This document shows, piece by piece, positions 7,831-33,173 of a stretch of 64,000 nucleotides of DNA. How positions within the stretch are numbered: the first letter of the stretch is position 1; each line of letters opens with the position of its first letter. Position numbers and translations under genes: made by a program. The DNA is from Heliocybe sulcata (Eukaryota > Basidiomycota > Agaricomycetes > Gloeophyllales > Gloeophyllaceae). The stretch covers positions 2,032,894 to 2,096,893 of the forward strand of contig ML213504.1 in NCBI GenBank assembly GCA_004369045.1. Reading direction: 5' to 3'. The notes under the pieces are model-generated. The model was not told the DNA's origin. It was given only the letters and a program-made list of their open reading frames with translations, and searched no databases.

Positions 7831-10800
7831 CTACTGAGAGAAGGCCAAGAACAGCGCCATTACAAGAATGACCAGCCCAAACCTCTGCGCCGAATTCTTC
7901 CTCTCCTCCCTCTGCGGACCACTGCCCGCTCTGCCAGTGAACCAGTCAAACCGTTTTCCCAGGAGCAGCACTTCCCCTCTCTCCAGTAATCCCATGACCC
8001 TTCCGCCCTCACTGCCCATCCGGATAAGAGAACTCTCGAGGACGGCTATAACCCACCGGATGCCGGAGACCGTGGTTTCCATGGTCTTGGTCCTCGTCGA
8101 ATCTCTGAAGAGATGTCGATATGCATCGTGCATCACGTTGGATACGATCACAGCGCAAGCAAACTCGACGGAGAGCGCTAAAATGATCCAGGAACCCCCA
8201 ATCAAAGCCTGGAAGCCTCCTATGATAGAAAAGACGCTGGCGAGCAGAAGCATCTCCCCGCTATTGGGCGCTGCATCCCGGTACGTGTACTCAGGATAGA
8301 GCTTGACTAGCCCTCCGTCTCCCTTGGACCACATGTAAAATCTCCAGTACGACCTTCGACCATTATTCCACCACGGGTGTGTCACGACCACATTAGGGGC
8401 AGCCCGGAACCCCTCTCCTCCATGATCAATCGAGAAGTTCCTCTTCTTCCTACAGAAGTCGATATCCTCTCCGCCGCCGGTCTTTGGGAACTGCAAGTCG
8501 TACTCCACTCCGTCCTTTATATTACGCCGCGCTATCAGGTTGGCGGTGACACCCCACGGCATGTCTTCCTCCATCTTGGTTGCGATGTCCCAGAAGTACG
8601 TTACCCCGGCCAGATGCACAGCTGCTGTGAAGATGCTGTCAGCGGAAGGGAACTGCGCGTTTCCGATGAAGCCAGCTGCTCTGGGATGTTCACGAATGCA
8701 CTTCTCAGCCTCGATGAGAAGATTGGGATGTGGAGAGACGTCATCGTCTAAGAAGTGGATCCACTCGGCTGCGGATTCCTTCATACCCCTGTTACGCGAG
8801 GCTGAGGCCCCCATATTATTTTCGTTGACCCTGATGCGCACGTCTGGTCGGTGGGCGAACTTGCGTTCCAGCTCGGCGATGCTTGGGGAACTGGGATTGT
8901 CCACGATAATAATGAACATGACGGAGCAAGTTGAATTACTCTTGAGCTGCAGCATTGGCTCTAGGAATTTTAGCTGCACGCGGTAGCACGGTATCACGAC
9001 GTCTAATGTGAGCTTCCGCTCGGCCTGTGATCCCTGTTTCTTGAGCCAGTCCTCAACCTTCGTAGTCGCATCGTCGAGCGTGCTAAACGTCCAGTCTACA
9101 GCATGCTGTTTCTGATACCGCGCCTGGTCACTTCCCCCAACTTTGTTTGAGATACGGCTGGCGAACATGGCAGAGCAACCCCACCTGCGATACAGTTGGT
9201 ACAGGTAGGGGTCACCGTCTTGGTTGACGAATATGTCAGGTACGACTTCCCCATCGAACATATCCAAATGCGACCTGTGGATAATTGGGAAGGTCGGCAT
9301 CCCGGGGAAGGTGACATCGGTGAAGGCGACACAGCCGAAGCCATACGGGACGTGCTCTCGTTCCGCCATGTGGTTGAATTCTGCCACGGTATCCCGCATC
9401 CAGCCCTCGTCCATTAGCACGACATCGTCGCCCATCAGGACATAGTAGTCGCATTTGTCCTCCCAAGCGCGTCGGGCAAGGGCTCTCCATAGGTCACAGA
9501 CATGCCCGCGCGGGAAGTTGCAAATAACAGTCTGGACGTTTTTCATGCCTTCATCACGGAGCGTAGCAGCGGCTCTGTTATCAGTTCCTGCGCCGAGAAG
9601 GAAGTTATCGTCGTGGTCGACGGCGAGATAAACGCGGACGTTGTAGCGGTCTCCGCCGAGGCTGTGTCGGTCCCGCCAAGTGGTCTTCTGGAGCGAAGCA
9701 GCGAATTCGCGTAGGTCGTCCAGACAGTCTCCCGGAGACGCCGATCCTCGGGAAGTAATTGGGAGAAGGATGGCGAAGGTATGCCCTGAGGATCGTAGGT
9801 CGACCACTTGGCTGCGCTGGAACTTCTGGAGGAGGGAGCGTCTCTCGTTAGGGTCAGAACCTTGCAACAGCTTCAGCATCTCGTCTTCCATCCATTCTCC
9901 TGTGCGTCTCATACCCTCTTCCAGGCTGATATGAGGGACCCAGTTCAGTTCGCGACGGACGAAGTCGTTGTTGGAGTTACGAGCGGCGACTCCGACGGGC
10001 TTGCTCGTGTCGTGCAGGAAAAGCACATGTTCCCTGTCGACGCCAACGGCTCCCAGTGCAATCTGTGCTAGTTCTTGCATCGTGACCGATGTATCCGTAC
10101 CTATATTTACGGGTGTGGCGCAGTTAGATTTGAGAAGAGAGCAAACGGCGTCGACGCAGTCCTCAATATAGAGGAAGCTACGACGCTGCGTGCCGTCTCC
10201 CCAAATCTCGAACTGGGAGGGCGCAGTGCCTAGGAACTTTCCTGCAAGGGCCTTGCGCAGGAAGGCTGCTGGCACTTTTTCCCTGCCGTTGTACCAAGCA
10301 CCGCGAGGTCCATACACGTTATGGAAACGAGCGATACGCACGTCGATCTGTCCGCTGTATTGAGCCAGAAGGAGCTCGGTGTTTAGCTTCTCTAGCCCAT
10401 ATAATCCTTGAGGGCGAGGGGGCGGATTGAACCAGACGTCGCTCTCGCGAAGTGAGACGTCGGTATTGCCCGGTCCTTGCAGGCTCTCTGGATAGACACA
10501 TGCGGAGGACGCGTAGAAGAAACGCTGTACTCCTGCCTCGACGGCGGCGGACAGCAAGTTTGTAGTCATTGTATGATTCTCGCTGTAGATGATGAAGTCG
10601 TTTTCGGCGTGGATAGTACCCATCCCTCCCATGGTAGCGGCGAAGTGCAATATGGTGTCGATACCTTGGACGACGCGAAGGCCAAAGTCCGCGTCGCAGA
10701 GGTTTCCTATGGCAGTCTCCGTGCAGATGGGCTCCGAGAATGGAGAGCACGCCTCAATGTCAGCTATCCGGACATGGTTACCCTCCTCGTGCAACCTCCT

Positions 10801-10931
10801 AGCGACATGGGATCCCTATGACTCCGTCAGGATACGACTTCACATGGGTCATGGATGAGCGTAGTGCTTACGATGAACCCATGGCCGCCAGTCACTAGGA
10901 TGGCCTTCTTGTTCTGGGATTGCCGTTGCAT
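7831..10931 (-). CDS. GDP-mannose 3,5-epimerase fused to two glycosyltransferase domains and membrane segments
   Basis: Two exons (10931-10872, 10815-7831) split by a 56-nt intron encode 1014 residues. Residues 1-340 are an extended SDR closely resembling plant GDP-mannose 3,5-epimerase: TGGHGFIGSH cofactor loop, AATMGGMG, SSAC (Cys126), YGLEK (Tyr159, Lys163) and GREK (Lys200). These match the four catalytic residues known from the Arabidopsis enzyme. Residues about 355-610 form a GT-A-like domain with LMGDDV (482-486). Residues about 622-860 form a GT2 domain with VVIPCY, FLDDDVSP (710-712) and GGGEDIDF. Hydrophobic segments follow at about 875-915 and at the extreme C-terminus (999-1014), suggesting membrane attachment. 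Inferred role: make GDP-L-galactose or GDP-L-gulose and transfer it on the same polypeptide. The 2985-nt uninterrupted exon is unlike neighbouring genes and may indicate transfer. Confidence 0.88.
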
Positions 10932-12055
10932 GATAGACGAGTGCGGTATGATGCAGCTTCTGGACTTGGTGGAGCTTATATAGGAGTCCCAAGCGCACTG
11001 CTGAAGCTAGACGAATTTTCGAGACGTTAGAAGGAGCTGTGCACACGCAGTGTTGATCTCCGATCGCAGGAATACGCCACTGCGGACGTTATTCGCAGTT
11101 CCTCGTTTAGGTGGGCATACAAGGACCCTTCGGGCGACCAATCAATATACAGTAAGTACCTGTACCTGGGATGCTTGAACAGCATCTTAATCCCGAAACC
11201 CGACGTGACCCATTGTCTGATGCGAGGCCATGTAGGAAGAACAGCGCTCGTCGACGTTTCAACGCTTGAAAGCTGGATCATCGGCGGGAAGGAAAGTTAC
11301 TGTACCTTGTCTAGTTCCCTGGGCGCTAGGGACCTCCTAGGTTAGCGAGCGTCTACAGACTACGCCTGGCTGTCACAAGCACCACGGCAGGACGCTCACA
11401 GGGAGACCGACACAGCAGTCCCATGCGCCCGTTTATTGCACCGCAGAGTCATTTCCTCGTCGCAGCTATGTAGAGGCTACATGGCGGGCTTACGGCCAAC
11501 TGTCAACCAAGAGTCAAGCTTGTTCAGGAAGCCCAACGGCGTGGGACCATGTTATGGCACTGTCATGGACGCCTGCAACTGATGTAGCGACGAAGATATT
11601 GAGCTGAATAGCCAACCCCACACGCAATTCGCGCCGTTGTCGAATAGGGCCATCGATATCACTCAGTGATTTGTAGAATGATGGTTGTACCGCATCGGTA
11701 TATCCGCAAAGGGAATAGCATAAGAACGAGGAGCCAGGCGAGCTACATGCGCAAGCAACGCCAGGAGCCACAGTCCATGGCACAGGTTCAAGGTTTCGTG
11801 ACTGCACGAATAACAATGAAGACTCCATCATTCGACTGAGGACGGGTACTCACTGTCCTCGGGAGCGCGGCTTTCATTCGCATCGTTCGACTTCGAATCA
11901 GCTCGCGACGAGCCCCTAGATATCAGGCGTTTATTACCCACAGCTTCTCTTCTTCACATCGACGGTCCTGCTCCAGTTTGATTAGGCTAGAACTGTCATT
12001 AGCGGGTTGTCCTCAGAGCTTCTAGGCAATCGACTTACACTGCTGATGATCGAAG
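10932..12055. other. Divergent intergenic region upstream of the epimerase-glycosyltransferase gene
   Basis: This stretch should hold the promoter of the minus-strand fusion gene. Two minus-strand open stretches look mildly protein-like. 11281-11027 has PRYRYLLYIDWSPEGSL. 11831-11514 is Cys/Ser-rich, begins MMESSLLFVQSRN and ends SHAVGLPEQA. A third frame near 11935-11840 (ADSKSNDANESRAPEDSE) looks like fungal low complexity. None joins into a convincing gene, so these may be exons of an unresolved gene or chance frames. Confidence 0.35.
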
Positions 12056-12850
12056 TCAGACTAGACTCGGCTTCCGATGAAACTGTCTTAGCGGTATGGC
12101 TGGGCAAATTACATCACAAGCCTCTGACAAGGAAGGCATCATTCCAGGGGCTTGCAATGAGTCTGAGTCCACGGCATACCCTGTGTCATTAGTGAACTGC
12201 TTGTCAGCTTGCGACGGCGAGTCAAAAGAATAGGCAAAGGGATTGAGGCGCATGGACCATTGACGCATAATAAGTACTATCTGTAGTATTCCTGTAGTCC
12301 AAATGTCCTGCAACAGCCAAGATAATGGAGGAGTTTCCTGCCCATGAATCAAGAAATTGCGTGCACTATCCTCGTCACGGTCGTGTTATCGATAGCCTCA
12401 AAATCAGCGATGTGGTAACCACTGCACATAGCAGAGATAAGGTGAATGGTCCTTCATAGAAGAGCATGGCAAGGCGACATACCGCGCAGAAAGCGAAGTT
12501 CCGAGCTAGAGTGATTATCACCGCGCAGATTATTTCCGAGATAATGGACACCGACCGCGCTGCGCTCTAATGGGCGATTGACATTCCCTTCGGATCCTGG
12601 AGAGGGCACGCACACGTACCTGCAGTAATCGGAGCATAGACATCCCCGTATGTCACACAGAAGAGTCCTGCTGTCTAACACGGGAGCCTCCGCAAAGGAG
12701 TCGAGTATAAATGCAGCCCTAGGCTGCGTCAGACCTCCAGCAGAGACACCCGGTTCAATCTTTCGAACAACACGCACCACGGACCAAAGAAGCAGAAGAC
12801 AGGTGAGATACTGCAGTGCCCTACATGGTCCTGATTATGGATAATAATGA
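12056..12850 (-). CDS. Unresolved multi-exon gene or remnant between the two sugar-gene fusions
   Basis: Several minus-strand stretches look coding but were not joined with certainty. Near 12840-12620: a hydrophobic helix (YLTCLLLLWSVVRVV) then basic residues and AAFILDSFAEAPVLDS, as in a type II membrane anchor. Near 12520-12380: a small exon pair with a GTATGT donor and TGTGCAG acceptor giving GYHIADFEAIDNTTVTRIV. Near 12350-12056: a polar exon ending PLRQFHRKPSLV. No ATG was found upstream in the first frame. It could be a short membrane protein linked to the flanking glycosyltransferase genes, or a decayed gene. No family is recognised. Confidence 0.3.
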
Positions 12851-12856
12851 GTATCC

Positions 12857-14500
12857 TTGAATGCCACCAGAGTTAAAATGATGGAAAACCCGACATCGTC
12901 CGTCCAGAGCGACTACACGTTCACTCCGTCTCAAGACTGGTTTACCTTTAATATTGATACGTGGAGGACTCTGTTTAATTTAGTGAAGCCTTCCCCGCGT
13001 ATATTGGAGATAGGTTCCTGGGAGGGGCGCTCCGCCGTCTTCCTACTGAAAGAACTTTGCGCCGACGGGGGCGAGGTCGTTTGCCTTGACCATTTCGACC
13101 TCATGGCGACGGCCGCAGGAAGGGAGCGATACCGAAAGCTCGAGCATAACTTGACGTTGACAGGCAAGAAGTTCAGTATCATCGATGAATTCTCGGTGCC
13201 GGGCCTCATGAGGCTCCTCCACGAACATATCCAGTCCAAGAGCAGCGGCTTCGACTGGGTGTACGTGGATGGCTCTCATGAGGCGGACGATACATTCTTG
13301 GACGGCGAGCTTGCTTGGCGCTTGGCCAACAAGGGAGCCGTTATCATTTTTGATGATTACCATTGGGACGTGGAGGACGAGGAGAGCATCCATCATCCTA
13401 AACGTGGGATAGATGCTTTCCTCGCCTTGCACGATGGGGAGTACGAAAGACTCTCCAGTCCCTCCCAGTATCAGTTGATACTCCAGAAGAAATCCGATAT
13501 GCGTATCGGCTTTCTTCTGAAGGATGTTCAGGAAGTCCAGGTAGACGATGACGCATTTGGGTATAGCATGAACATAGCACTTACCATCAATGAAGACTAT
13601 GCCATGCCGGCAGCGGTGACAGTCCAAGGACTGGTGGACCATAACGAAGGAAAACTGAGGATCTATATTCTCGACTGCGGCATATCCGAGAGCAGTAGGA
13701 AGAAGCTAGCATCAGCAGCTGCGGAGAGGCAGGGCGTGAGCATGCTATTCCTAGAGCTACCAAAGGATAGCTTGACAGCGGAACATGGAGCGGTGTGGGC
13801 GAAATTAGACATGCTCCGCGTATTGCCTGTGGAACGTGTTCTGTATCTGGATGGCGATACTTTGATTCGGAAACCGATCATGGACCTGTGGAGGACCGAT
13901 TTACAGGGAAAATCTTGTGCCGCTGCTCTTGATGTGGGCTTCCCTATGGCCCATGAGGGCATAGAGAGAAAGCCCTATTTCAACGCAGGCGTGATGTTGC
14001 TAGACCTGGCTAAAATCCGTCTGAGTATCGATAAACTCTTCGGCCTAGCTAAGGACAAGGGCATTTCCAAATTCACCTTCAAGGATCAGGATGTGTTGAA
14101 CGAGCACTTCAACGGAGACTGGATTAAGATCAGCCTTACCTGGAATGCCACAGGACTGGGAACGTACGCAGACTTGCCCTCCCATGACCGCCTGGCAATC
14201 GATTTTGAGGAGTTGAAGGATCCTGCCATCATCCACTTCACGGGGCCGGTGCATCCTGACGCCGCGGTGGTATTGAACCCCTGGGTTCAACCATACACAG
14301 CGAAGCCCTGGGGTTACGCCGGATCTCCCAAGCACCCGTTCCAGGCTCAGTGGTGGGCGACGCTGGAAAGAACCGCCTGGCAAGGATACCGCCAGTCTGC
14401 GGAGTACAAAGAAATGATGATAGAACAGAAAGAGAAAGCTATACAGTCTGCTATCCGCGCGATGGAGAACCGCTTGGCTGAAGTAAACGCGGACACTTGA
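12857..14500 (+). CDS. SAM-dependent methyltransferase fused to GT8-family glycosyltransferase
   Basis: Single-exon frame of 547 codons; an ATG at 12878 (MMENPTSS) is an alternative start. Residues about 25-210 form a class I methyltransferase of the Methyltransf_24 type: LEIGSWEGRSA is the SAM loop, VYVDGSHEADD follows, then VIIFDDYHW. Residues about 234-510 form a GT8 domain: NIALTINEDYAMPA at its start, YLDGDTLIRKP (the DGD at 332-334 binds metal and sugar nucleotide), NAGVMLLD, and HFTG with KPW near the end. The C-terminus is a charged helix. There is no signal peptide or membrane helix, so a cytosolic or peripheral enzyme is likely. Inferred role: glycosylate and methylate the same acceptor as the divergent epimerase fusion. 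Lack of introns is unusual here. Confidence 0.85.
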   Translation: MNATRVKMMENPTSSVQSDYTFTPSQDWFTFNIDTWRTLFNLVKPSPRILEIGSWEGRSAVFLLKELCADGGEVVCLDHFDLMATAAGRERYRKLEHNLTLTGKKFSIIDEFSVPGLMRLLHEHIQSKSSGFDWVYVDGSHEADDTFLDGELAWRLANKGAVIIFDDYHWDVEDEESIHHPKRGIDAFLALHDGEYERLSSPSQYQLILQKKSDMRIGFLLKDVQEVQVDDDAFGYSMNIALTINEDYAMPAAVTVQGLVDHNEGKLRIYILDCGISESSRKKLASAAAERQGVSMLFLELPKDSLTAEHGAVWAKLDMLRVLPVERVLYLDGDTLIRKPIMDLWRTDLQGKSCAAALDVGFPMAHEGIERKPYFNAGVMLLDLAKIRLSIDKLFGLAKDKGISKFTFKDQDVLNEHFNGDWIKISLTWNATGLGTYADLPSHDRLAIDFEELKDPAIIHFTGPVHPDAAVVLNPWVQPYTAKPWGYAGSPKHPFQAQWWATLERTAWQGYRQSAEYKEMMIEQKEKAIQSAIRAMENRLAEVNADT

Positions 14501-30052: not shown

Positions 30053-31803
30053 GTGGGAGCGGCAAGAGGCTCATGGACTTGTATGATTAGAGGGACTATA
30101 TTCAGGGCAACCAATGTATTACCGTCTGGGCACGTTTGTAAATCATTTGGTCAGGTTTGACACTCCTCGTACTGATGTTCAAACGTCCATACGTATGACT
30201 CGACGACTTCCTACGCAAGTGAAGCAGCTGTCGACGTCTTAGCTTGTTTTGGAACCGTCATCAGAATATTAATATTGTCTGTTACGATCATCGATGCTGT
30301 CGTCTGCGAGATCAAATTTGATCTCGCACACGAGAGAATCGATGATCGCAGCACATAGCGTTCAAAGAGTACTGCGTCCTGTTCGATCTCAAGGCAACAC
30401 GCTTCGGTCGCCGATCTGTCTCAAGGACAAAGCGGTGGCGGGTCTTGCAGTGAAGTAACTGTGGCCACTTTGGATGACATCTCTCACAGTCTCAGTGACA
30501 ATGGAGAGCCGAGGAAAGCATGTTACAGATAGCACACATTCTATGCACCGCACCTTGGTTCCAAACTTATTGTCAGACGTTCAAGGATATCCACAGCCTC
30601 CGAATTCGTCGCCAGAAGGGATACAAGGCAGACTTGAAAGCGGGCGATCGATAGTCCTTCAGGCCAAGATCCACTCAAGGACTGCGGTCTCTTGCCCGGA
30701 TAACCGCTCTATCCAAGTCACCCCCTGGCGAGCGTACCGACCCATGTACGAGCGATAATTTTGTCATTCCATACTAAAAGTCATTCTCAGCGTCCCACCT
30801 AACCAGGAGAATGGAGGCAGTGTCGGGAACAGCTACTGCATGGTCGCTTGAGCTTCGCCGGTTCCGCAGGAGTTTGGGTAACTGTGAGTGATCGCCGCCT
30901 TCCCTACTGGCGTTCTGTCTAATATGGAGTGCTACAGATCGTGCACCAGCGATTTTCCTGGTTTACGGATATGCTTTTATATGGGTGACTGCCTTATGCA
31001 AAGGAAGTGGACAGGACGTACTTTTGATCTTCATTGCCACTGTCCTCGGGGGATTCGTGCAGTCATATCATATGCACAATATGTTTGTATTGTGAGTTCA
31101 GATATATTTGTTGGTTGCCGGAAAATCGGGCGTGGTACGTCCGGAAATAAACAGCTTGTTACCGCGCCGTGATCGTTCCATTGGGGAGACGACTTCTGTG
31201 AGAACAGCATGAACGTCTTGTGCAGTGCTCTGCATAAGGCAGCGCTTGGCCTTCCCTATGTCGCCCCAGAGCAACGCTGAATGAAGCACTGCAATCGGCG
31301 AAGTCTGACAGTCCACCGGAAGAGGTCGGACTGCGGGGTCGTCCAACCAGAGCAGCGGCATTGTGGGTACCGGTCACGTGACGGCATCGAGGCCTTCTCC
31401 GAAGCCCTCCCGGAATATTTTGCCCGACGAATGCGCTCCTTGACGTCGGTGTTAAGTAATTCTAGCGTTTAAGGCCAGGTCGAGAGGCAGCTTCAACGGG
31501 AACGAACGGCCTGGTGTGAATTTAGTGTCGGTAAAGAACCAGATATAGGGGAGTCAAGACGGAAAGCATCCATACCAAGCATCCCGGCAATCTTCCATTG
31601 CTTGACGGTGAGTAGTGGATTCCCTTCGCCACAAGTCTACCGCGCTGATCTCCACTGTCTTGTCAATCTGTTCAGGTCGGCACCCTCTACGCAAACCTGG
31701 GAGCTAAAGGTTATTTTAGCTATCTGCCCCTCACCTGTTATCTACCCCGCACCTGTGCATTTGTCCAGCAACAAGACCCGACGCTTCGCCTAGATCCCTT
31801 ACC
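30053..31803. other. 1.75-kb intergenic region with a palindrome, no sure gene
   Basis: No recognisable product. A near-perfect 62-bp palindrome sits at 30286-30347 (listed separately). Open frames such as minus 31361-31098 (MPLLWLDDPAVRPLPVD) and plus 31281-31472 overlap each other on opposite strands and have no family or splice support. The last 200 bp upstream of 31804 should be the protoglobin promoter. Confidence 0.4.
30286..30347. repeat. 62-bp near-perfect palindrome
   Basis: A 24-bp perfect palindrome (30305-30328, TGCGAGATCAAA and its complement) is nested in a second inverted pair, GATCATCGAT (30286-30295) and ATCGATGATC (30338-30347), with the same centre. The 9-bp segments between match at six of nine positions. 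It can form a long hairpin or cruciform. It lies 234 bp after the kinase-like stop codon. Confidence 0.85.
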
Positions 31804-32617
31804 ATGTCGAAGATTACTCACATCGACCCTCGCTCCCTCAGCGACCTGACCGCCCGGGTTCACTACCTGAAGTCGTTCATCCAGTTCACGGATGAGGACG
31901 GTGCGGCCGTCCAGGCTGCAGGGCCCCTCCTCAGTCAGCTGTTGCCCGCGATTCTTGACGCTGTCTACTCTCACCTTCTCTCTTTCGATATCACCGCCAA
32001 GGCCTTCCTCCCGAAACAGCCTGAACAGGACGCCGCCGGTGCAGGTGCTCAGAAAGTGGAAGAGCTCTCGCTAGAGCACCCGAATATCAAGCACCGCAAA
32101 GACTTCCTCGGGCAGTATTTCGTCAAGCTGGTGAGCAACAAGGATTGGAGCGATGCTAGTCCCTTCTGGCGCTATCTGGACCTGGTCGGTGTCATGCACA
32201 CCGGCGAGCCAGGGTTCAAGCACCGCGCGAAAAGACCTGAGTTGCGGGTCGAGTTCATCCACATGGGATTGCTGCTGGGCTGGGTGGAGGATCTGGTCGC
32301 GAAGACCGTGCTGGAGGAGGAAAGCCTGGATCTGCCGACGAAGACGAAGGTTATCCGGGCGTTCAACAAGCTTTTGTGGATCCAGAATGACCTGTTCGCA
32401 AGACACTACGTCGTTGACCCCGCTACGGGAACACTCCCGAAGGGTTCGCAAGCTAGCAAGGTGCGCCTCCGATGTCCGGACTTCAGAGAGGGAGAGACGT
32501 TACTGATGGACCCTCGCGTAGCTCTTGCTTGCAACATCCTCAAACTCGACATATGCTATCGCTGGCTCCGTGGCACTGGCTGTTGGCGCAACCGTGTTGT
32601 TACTTCGTTGCCTGTAG
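31804..32617 (+). CDS. Tail-anchored protoglobin / globin-sensor-domain protein
   Basis: Two exons, 31804-32460 and 32522-32617, split by a 61-nt intron, encode 250 residues. Residues 1-205 match the protoglobin (globin-coupled sensor) fold: HIDPRSLSDLTARVHYLKSF, FTDEDGAAVQAAGPLLSQLL, HPNIKHRKDFLGQYFVKLV, YLDLVGVMHTGEPGFKHRAK, VEFIHMGLLLGWVEDL. The His in VEFIHMG fits the proximal heme ligand. Exon 2 changes frame from the read-through and supplies a hydrophobic tail (YAIAGSVALAVGATVLLL) ending RCL, a C-terminal membrane anchor. Known protoglobins bind O2, CO and NO; this one is inferred to be a heme sensor or scavenger on a membrane. Confidence 0.85.
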
Positions 32618-33173
32618 ACTCGGTGTCGTAGTAAAATACCAGGTGGTACTGTATATTATCCGGTTGCAATCTTGGTCTGCATTATCTGATAATACTCCCG
32701 CATCTTCTGTCCATGTGACTAGCTGCCTCTGCGGTGGAAGTAACAGACGATAAACGTCCTGAATGTTCCTCTGCCCTTCCCTTCGTCCGTTCCCGGGTTG
32801 ACTAGTAAGAGTCAATGCGCATAACCCAGGCTCGGGGCCGCAACGCAGCTGCCTTCTGGGACGAAACTTGAGTACTCCGCCGAAAACAACAGTTCGGGAT
32901 AATAGGAAACCAGAGAACGGAGTTGTCGACTTGTTCCTGCAGAAGAAGTAAGCCCAGCGAGATATTTAAGACTCGATGTCTGCGTAGCAGGACAGCGGAG
33001 GACAAGATTGACCCGCCTAAATTGAGGAATCTCGGAAAAGATACACCGCGATAAACAAACGCTGAGTTCAGCCACACTCCCCGGGACCGCTACCTCTGCC
33101 CCCGTATATAAGAGTCGCCGACTCCCTAGTCGCTCTCGTCGCTCCCGTCGCTCCCAGGCTAAAATCGTGAAAA
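32618..33173. other. Upstream region of the eIF5B gene
   Basis: The 556-bp gap contains the 3' flank of the protoglobin gene and the eIF5B promoter and leader. A pyrimidine-rich stretch with repeated TCGTCGCTCC-like units (33130-33155) precedes the eIF5B ATG, as often seen for translation-factor genes. No gene was seen. Confidence 0.4.

Follow-up and report, generated by a model that had tools for sequence, protein, structure and literature searches.

A gene on the minus strand of the window (the whole 64,000-nucleotide stretch of DNA analysed here) was found to encode, in a single frame, a GDP-mannose 3,5-epimerase (GME) with intact active-site residues and a family 2 glycosyltransferase (GT2), followed by a hydrophobic tail; a head-to-head neighbour carries methyltransferase and family 8 glycosyltransferase (GT8) domains. 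The fusion, composed of known families and one unclassified domain, is real and unusual, and is new as far as searched. Read in the simplest way, its sequence suggests that a sugar donor would be made and used on one chain.

A two-exon gene with one open frame

The fusion gene and its parts were delimited as follows.

7831-10931, minus strand: fusion gene, two exons, product of 1014 residues in a single frame
10872-10931, minus strand: exon 1, residues 1-20, ATG at 10931
10816-10871, minus strand: intron, 56 nt, GT..AG
7831-10815, minus strand: exon 2, 994 codons, stop at 7831 included
9871-10815, minus strand: remainder of the GME domain, residues 21 to about 335, from homology and the structural model (whole domain about residues 8-335)
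9025-9783, minus strand: unclassified middle domain, residues 365-617, with VLMGDDV at 479-485
8266-9024, minus strand: GT2 glycosyltransferase domain, residues about 618-870, Pfam PF00535
8131-8253, minus strand: two hydrophobic, probably membrane-spanning segments by hydropathy, residues 875-893 and 897-915
7837-7893, minus strand: C-terminal hydrophobic segment by hydropathy, tail-anchor-like, residues 995-1013

Exon 1 encodes most of the NAD glycine motif (GGHGFI/G), and the splice restores the in-frame GxxGxxG motif, which supports the exon 1/exon 2 junction; the AG of the intron is preceded by a branch-point-like box, CTGAC, as read from the sequence. Exon 2 is the sole long frame in 7831-10815, the other five frames holding 19 to 46 stops each and stop-free runs of at most 186 codons. 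The G+C content of third codon positions was 0.64 in the epimerase part, 0.66 in the middle part and 0.67 in the C-terminal part. That the GME, the middle domain, the GT2 and the tail form one coding frame is confirmed. A sequence-only reading of this DNA had given the same coordinates, strand and length of 1014 residues, all of which proved correct (ATG at 10931, intron from 10871 to 10816, stop at 7831), and had rightly placed epimerase, GT2 and membrane segments on one chain, since the same open frame contains the domains and the segments flagged by hydropathy. Run-together genes are rejected on the 994 stop-free codons that span all domains and on the similar codon-position composition along the frame; with these two features of the genomic sequence against it, an artefact of gene modelling or assembly in which separate genes were joined is extremely improbable.

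The N-terminal domain and its active site

In a search of the PDB, the best solved match of the exon-2 protein was the Arabidopsis GME at E 5e-74, far beyond chance, followed by GDP-L-fucose synthase as the next family (E 4e-21) and by the best UDP-glucose 4-epimerase entry (6e-17). An identity as an ordinary UDP-glucose epimerase or GDP-L-fucose synthase is rejected on these values, which also answers in the negative the question, raised by the sequence-only reading, of whether this part is an ordinary UDP-glucose epimerase. The domain matched PF01370 with 145 bits, and the GxxGxxG NAD motif of extended SDR enzymes is present as GGHGFIG at residues 15-21. The four motifs on which the epimerase had been recognised were all located within this part: AATMGGMG at residues 79-86, SSAC at 123-126, YGLEK at 159-163 and GREKVPAAF at 197-205. 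Judged by its sequence, the N-terminal domain is a GME.

Passages of the GME review PMC8787198 single out S143, C145, Y174, K178, N203, K217, R243 and R306 as key residues of the Arabidopsis enzyme. In the alignment all eight were kept, in the same order, as S124, C126, Y159, K163, N186, K200, R232 and R299, and the earlier claim that the catalytic residues are conserved holds for each of them. The catalytic triad S...YxxxK is thereby represented by S124, Y159 and K163, and the Cys/Lys acid-base pair by C126 and K200, while R299 stands for the arginine that acidifies the cysteine (R306), R232 for the diphosphate arginine (R243) and N186 for the asparagine (N203). The acid-base residue is a lysine in GME versus a histidine in GDP-L-fucose synthase, and Lys200 and Arg299 are the features by which the two enzymes are separated in the same passages (PMC8787198). 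An AlphaFold model based on a 42-row alignment gave 10-residue block means of 74-98 over exon-2 residues 1-330, with 29 of 33 blocks above 80, its high confidence being limited to the GME domain.

Conservation reaches 95% or more across 166 other rows in 78 alignment columns, and the GME part deviated at 10 of these, compared with 7 for the next highest row and 5 for Arabidopsis, a count biased against the GME of the window by the selection of the columns from the other rows. The changed columns include the D of AADMGG, present in 97.6% of the other rows and replaced here by T81, and two that adjoin key arginines, R231 before R232 and A298 before R299.

Phylogenetic placement and distribution

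Two trees were compared, one of 167 rows (164 of the 166 fetched loci, two plant sequences and the window) and a careful tree of 47 hand-picked rows. The GME of the window fell into a clade of seven rows, the others being the two plant GMEs and four sequences from Bacteroidota, with an SH-aLRT support of 97 in the 167-row tree and support of 100/97 in the 47-row tree. A grouping of the window with the plants alone, as the label 'plant-type' of the sequence-only reading would imply, was neither favoured nor rejected (p-AU 0.22, in a sampling with two rows from plants and none from algae or other fungi). In each of the two trees this GME had the longest end branch of all (4.1 and 4.7), and its placement is unsure because the branch is so long. 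The substrate or product of this GME may have shifted, as suggested by the 10 changed columns of 78 together with this branch. In the four Bacteroidota loci, whose GMEs are the bacterial ones closest to that of the window in both trees, a NUDIX domain lies N-terminal to the GME in one frame of 526-538 residues (L007:4413-5993, L020:4380-5993, L025:4413-5993 and L050:4416-5993).

Relatives of the GME were encoded by at least 564 of at least 591 candidate stretches in genome_contigs and numbered at least 582 in viral_contigs, and are common in bacteria and cyanophages. The sequence-only reading had listed plants, algae and some bacteria as sources of the enzyme, a range that is too narrow given these numbers. 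A single-protein scan of genome_contigs had found nothing, and that scan mode is taken to be insensitive because the later search of the same collection recovered so many relatives. In 296 genomes of the phylum of a Chryseobacterium locus, with two candidates scored per genome, 20 genomes gave a best match at E 1.3e-44 or below, followed by a gap to 1.9e-29, where a weaker group without family labels begins. GME-like genes are frequent on viral contigs, those of cyanophages among them (L001-L003 and many of L087-L166), and go under varied epimerase names in phage records. The PHROGs family phrog_540, which matches the GME of the exon-2 protein, is 715 positions long and was matched at 305-612 only, so that additional domains are possible in some of its phage members.

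The fusion itself was not recovered in these collections. None of 80 of the at least 564 relatives in genome_contigs, and none of 80 of the at least 582 in viral_contigs, matched past query residue 361, and among the matches listed for the 296 genomes none extended past residue 356. In the 132 phage records with a match and in 994 plasmid records, no single region extended over 80% of the query. As far as searched, the GME-GT2 fusion is without counterpart in prokaryotic, phage, plasmid and viral DNA.

The middle domain, the GT2 domain and the membrane segments

The middle domain (residues 365-617) had no significant Pfam match (one at E 0.16) and chance-level matches only in the PDB. No relatives of it were found in phages, in the 166 fetched loci, or, by searches run without a positive control, in 201 genomes of the phylum of L010 (Chloroflexi) and 398 genomes of the phylum of L035 (Proteobacteria); plasmid matches reached E 0.5 only, and a motif scan of viral_contigs returned 4 loci with a best tblastn E of 0.096. 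When the part C-terminal to the GME was used, a related-locus search of viral_contigs found nothing, and 12 genomes were matched through the GT2 half only. The hhalign score of the middle domain against the GT2 profile was reached by 7 of 60 shuffles. A single-sequence model of the domain had a mean pLDDT of 41, which makes its PDB matches meaningless, and the alignment-based model lay mostly below 50 in this region. Both low-confidence models alternate strands and helices, and a GDD motif is present at 482-484; the motif and this modelled pattern are compatible with a GT-A domain without establishing one.

Residues 618-870, approximately, are by homology a family 2 glycosyltransferase, matching PF00535 (Glycos_transf_2) with 57.9 bits against a cut-off of 23.3, far beyond chance. 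It contains FLDDDV at 708-713 (DxD-type) and GGEDIDFC at 801-808, and its best solved matches were weak and general, the best being chondroitin synthase at E 9e-7. Of the two glycosyltransferases proposed in the sequence-only reading, the GT2 is upheld by the Pfam score; the GT-A assignment of the middle domain found no significant match in Pfam or the PDB. QxxRW is the motif of processive GT2 synthases of the chitin, cellulose and hyaluronan type. It is absent from the entire 1014-residue protein, which favours the addition of single sugars.

Hydropathy bears out the membrane segments claimed earlier, with three C-terminal hydrophobic segments in frame. Residues 640-658, within the GT2 domain, are marginally hydrophobic (1.21), and we take them for a buried strand. 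No hydrophobic segment above the cut-off was detected before residue 640, so a cytosolic N-terminus is likely, and by this hydropathy-based topology the catalytic parts are probably cytosolic.

The divergent neighbour and the remainder of the window

Upstream of the fusion gene, the following features were recognised.

10932-12877, no strand: intergenic region between the head-to-head genes, 1946 bases
12878-14500, plus strand: divergent neighbour, a methyltransferase-GT8 fusion, 540 residues from its ATG in one open frame

The neighbour, which was absent from the sequence-only reading of the locus, contains a SAM methyltransferase domain (PF13578, 64.3 bits against a cut-off of 26.3) and a GT8 glycosyltransferase domain (PF01501, 98.7 bits against 24.3), the best solved match of the latter being the galactosyltransferase LgtC. 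On the minus strand, TATATAA lies 51 nt before the ATG of the fusion gene; on the plus strand, TATAAAT precedes the ATG of the neighbour by 172 nt. Phage and plasmid records contained no region extending over 80% of the methyltransferase-GT8 protein. Since the two genes are adjacent and divergent and each fuses glycan enzymes, a shared product is plausible; on position and kind, the neighbour is a plausible partner of the GME fusion.

The gene beyond the neighbour encodes a kinesin-3 type motor. This motor and the intron of the fusion gene mark the window as eukaryotic, and the shortness of the intron and its CTGAC box are in keeping with a fungus, the probable host. Elsewhere in the window, a 303-residue frame at 31720-32628 on the plus strand contains a Protoglobin domain (PF11563, E 9e-40), with no PDB match at E 0.01. 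Scans of the window detected no tRNA and no Rfam family at cut-off (no rRNA), and PADLOC returned no match.

Proposed function

We give about an even chance to the gene being a fusion that makes and uses a sugar donor, the product of the GME being passed to its own GT2. From the domains described above we infer activity, donor sharing, acceptor, topology and the partnership with the neighbour along the following lines. The GME part would convert GDP-mannose to GDP-L-galactose (or the gulose or altrose product). The GT2 on the same chain, anchored in the membrane by the C-terminal segments and with its active site at the cytosolic face, would move the GME-made sugar to a membrane-bound acceptor, probably one residue at a time. 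The middle domain would perhaps act as another transferase, or else as a module that binds the acceptor, and the head-to-head gene would probably extend this glycan by one more sugar and O-methylate it. Taken together, the two genes may form a cassette, probably a fungal one, for an O-methylated glycan of L-galactose (alternatively of L-gulose or D-altrose), a reading that is put forward tentatively. The GDP-L-sugar would then be made and transferred at the cytosolic membrane face, possibly with two transferase modules, the head-to-head gene would contribute its GT8 transferase and methyltransferase, and neither a dedicated transporter nor a pool of free donor would be required.

The epimerase might instead act on another nucleotide sugar, or be a single 5- or 3-epimerase, giving a glycan with L-gulose, D-altrose or another sugar. 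The changes at 10 of 78 conserved columns, including T81, R231 and A298 (a count biased against the window), and the very long branch are consistent with this, and single 3- or 5-epimerases are considered possible in passages of PMC8787198; with all eight of the catalytic and GDP-sugar-binding residues checked unchanged, however, we consider it unlikely. It is also conceivable that the parts are fused for co-regulation or as a scaffold and nothing more, with the GT2 (and the middle domain) drawing on other donors and the product of the GME going elsewhere or not being made. In line with this, the searches found no homology between the GT2 and a transferase for GDP-L-galactose, and the chondroitin synthase was the best of its weak, general solved matches, but an intact GME active site on a transferase chain most simply points to donor supply, and the neighbour is likewise a glycan gene, so that mere scaffolding appears quite unlikely. 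If the GME does supply its own GT2, the intact GME and the membrane GT2 on one chain predict a glycan containing an L-sugar.

Comparison with known systems

Should the cassette reading hold, we know of no earlier example of an L-hexose-donor epimerase sharing its chain with a glycosyltransferase, the search having covered prokaryotic, phage, plasmid and viral DNA; the same GME-GT2 fusion may well sit unremarked in fungal genomes. Among the papers listed, which come mostly from outside the subscription journals, no title or opening of an abstract described a GME-glycosyltransferase fusion, fungal or other, and none of those on fungal or basidiomycete L-galactose reported an L-sugar glycan. In passages of PMC8787198 and PMC6678494, GME is dealt with in plants, as an enzyme of ascorbate and of the cell wall, and in bacteria; the main texts of both papers contain no word beginning with 'fung'. 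Table 1 of PMC3220709 counts 2 fungal, 43 bacterial and 53 Viridiplantae sequences as close homologues of plant GME. The sequence-only reading had known of no described fungal case, which agrees with the titles and abstracts as regards a fusion with a glycosyltransferase and has to be qualified for GME itself by the two fungal homologues, counted though undescribed, in that table (PMC3220709).

The GME of the window is 45-46% identical to plant GME (Arabidopsis, PDB 2C54/2C59/2C5A/2C5E; and 8SG0, taken as a plant enzyme on its 93% identity to Arabidopsis GME) and shares with it the eight key residues and the Rossmann glycine motif, but differs at 10 otherwise conserved positions. The solved plant chains have 379 and 409 residues, whereas the GME of the window is fused to the middle domain, the GT2 and the membrane tail. 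The Nudix-GME proteins of the Bacteroidota (L007, L020, L025 and L050), from the same seven-row clade, are natural fusions like that of the window, but their partner is an N-terminal NUDIX domain, without a glycosyltransferase. The methyltransferase-GT8 neighbour resembles Chlorella virus A064R, a multi-domain glycosyltransferase-methyltransferase on one chain, which is not known to carry an epimerase and belongs to different families. In the dTDP-glucose 4,6-dehydratase/GlcNAc-1-P uridyltransferase of Chrysochromulina ericina virus, an extended-SDR sugar enzyme is fused to a second sugar-nucleotide enzyme; it is not named GME, and its partner produces a donor instead of using one.

Donor supply on one chain is known from plant RHM, a bifunctional nucleotide-sugar enzyme with several donor-supply steps per chain (described in part of PMC3220709), and from FKP, a bifunctional fucokinase/GDP-fucose pyrophosphorylase (described in part of PMC12732313). 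In both of these all parts make the donor and neither carries a transferase that uses it, whereas the protein of the window has a GT2. Glycosyltransferases that use GME products for glycoside production are anticipated in a passage of PMC8787198, and the fusion would be a natural donor-transferase pair of this kind.
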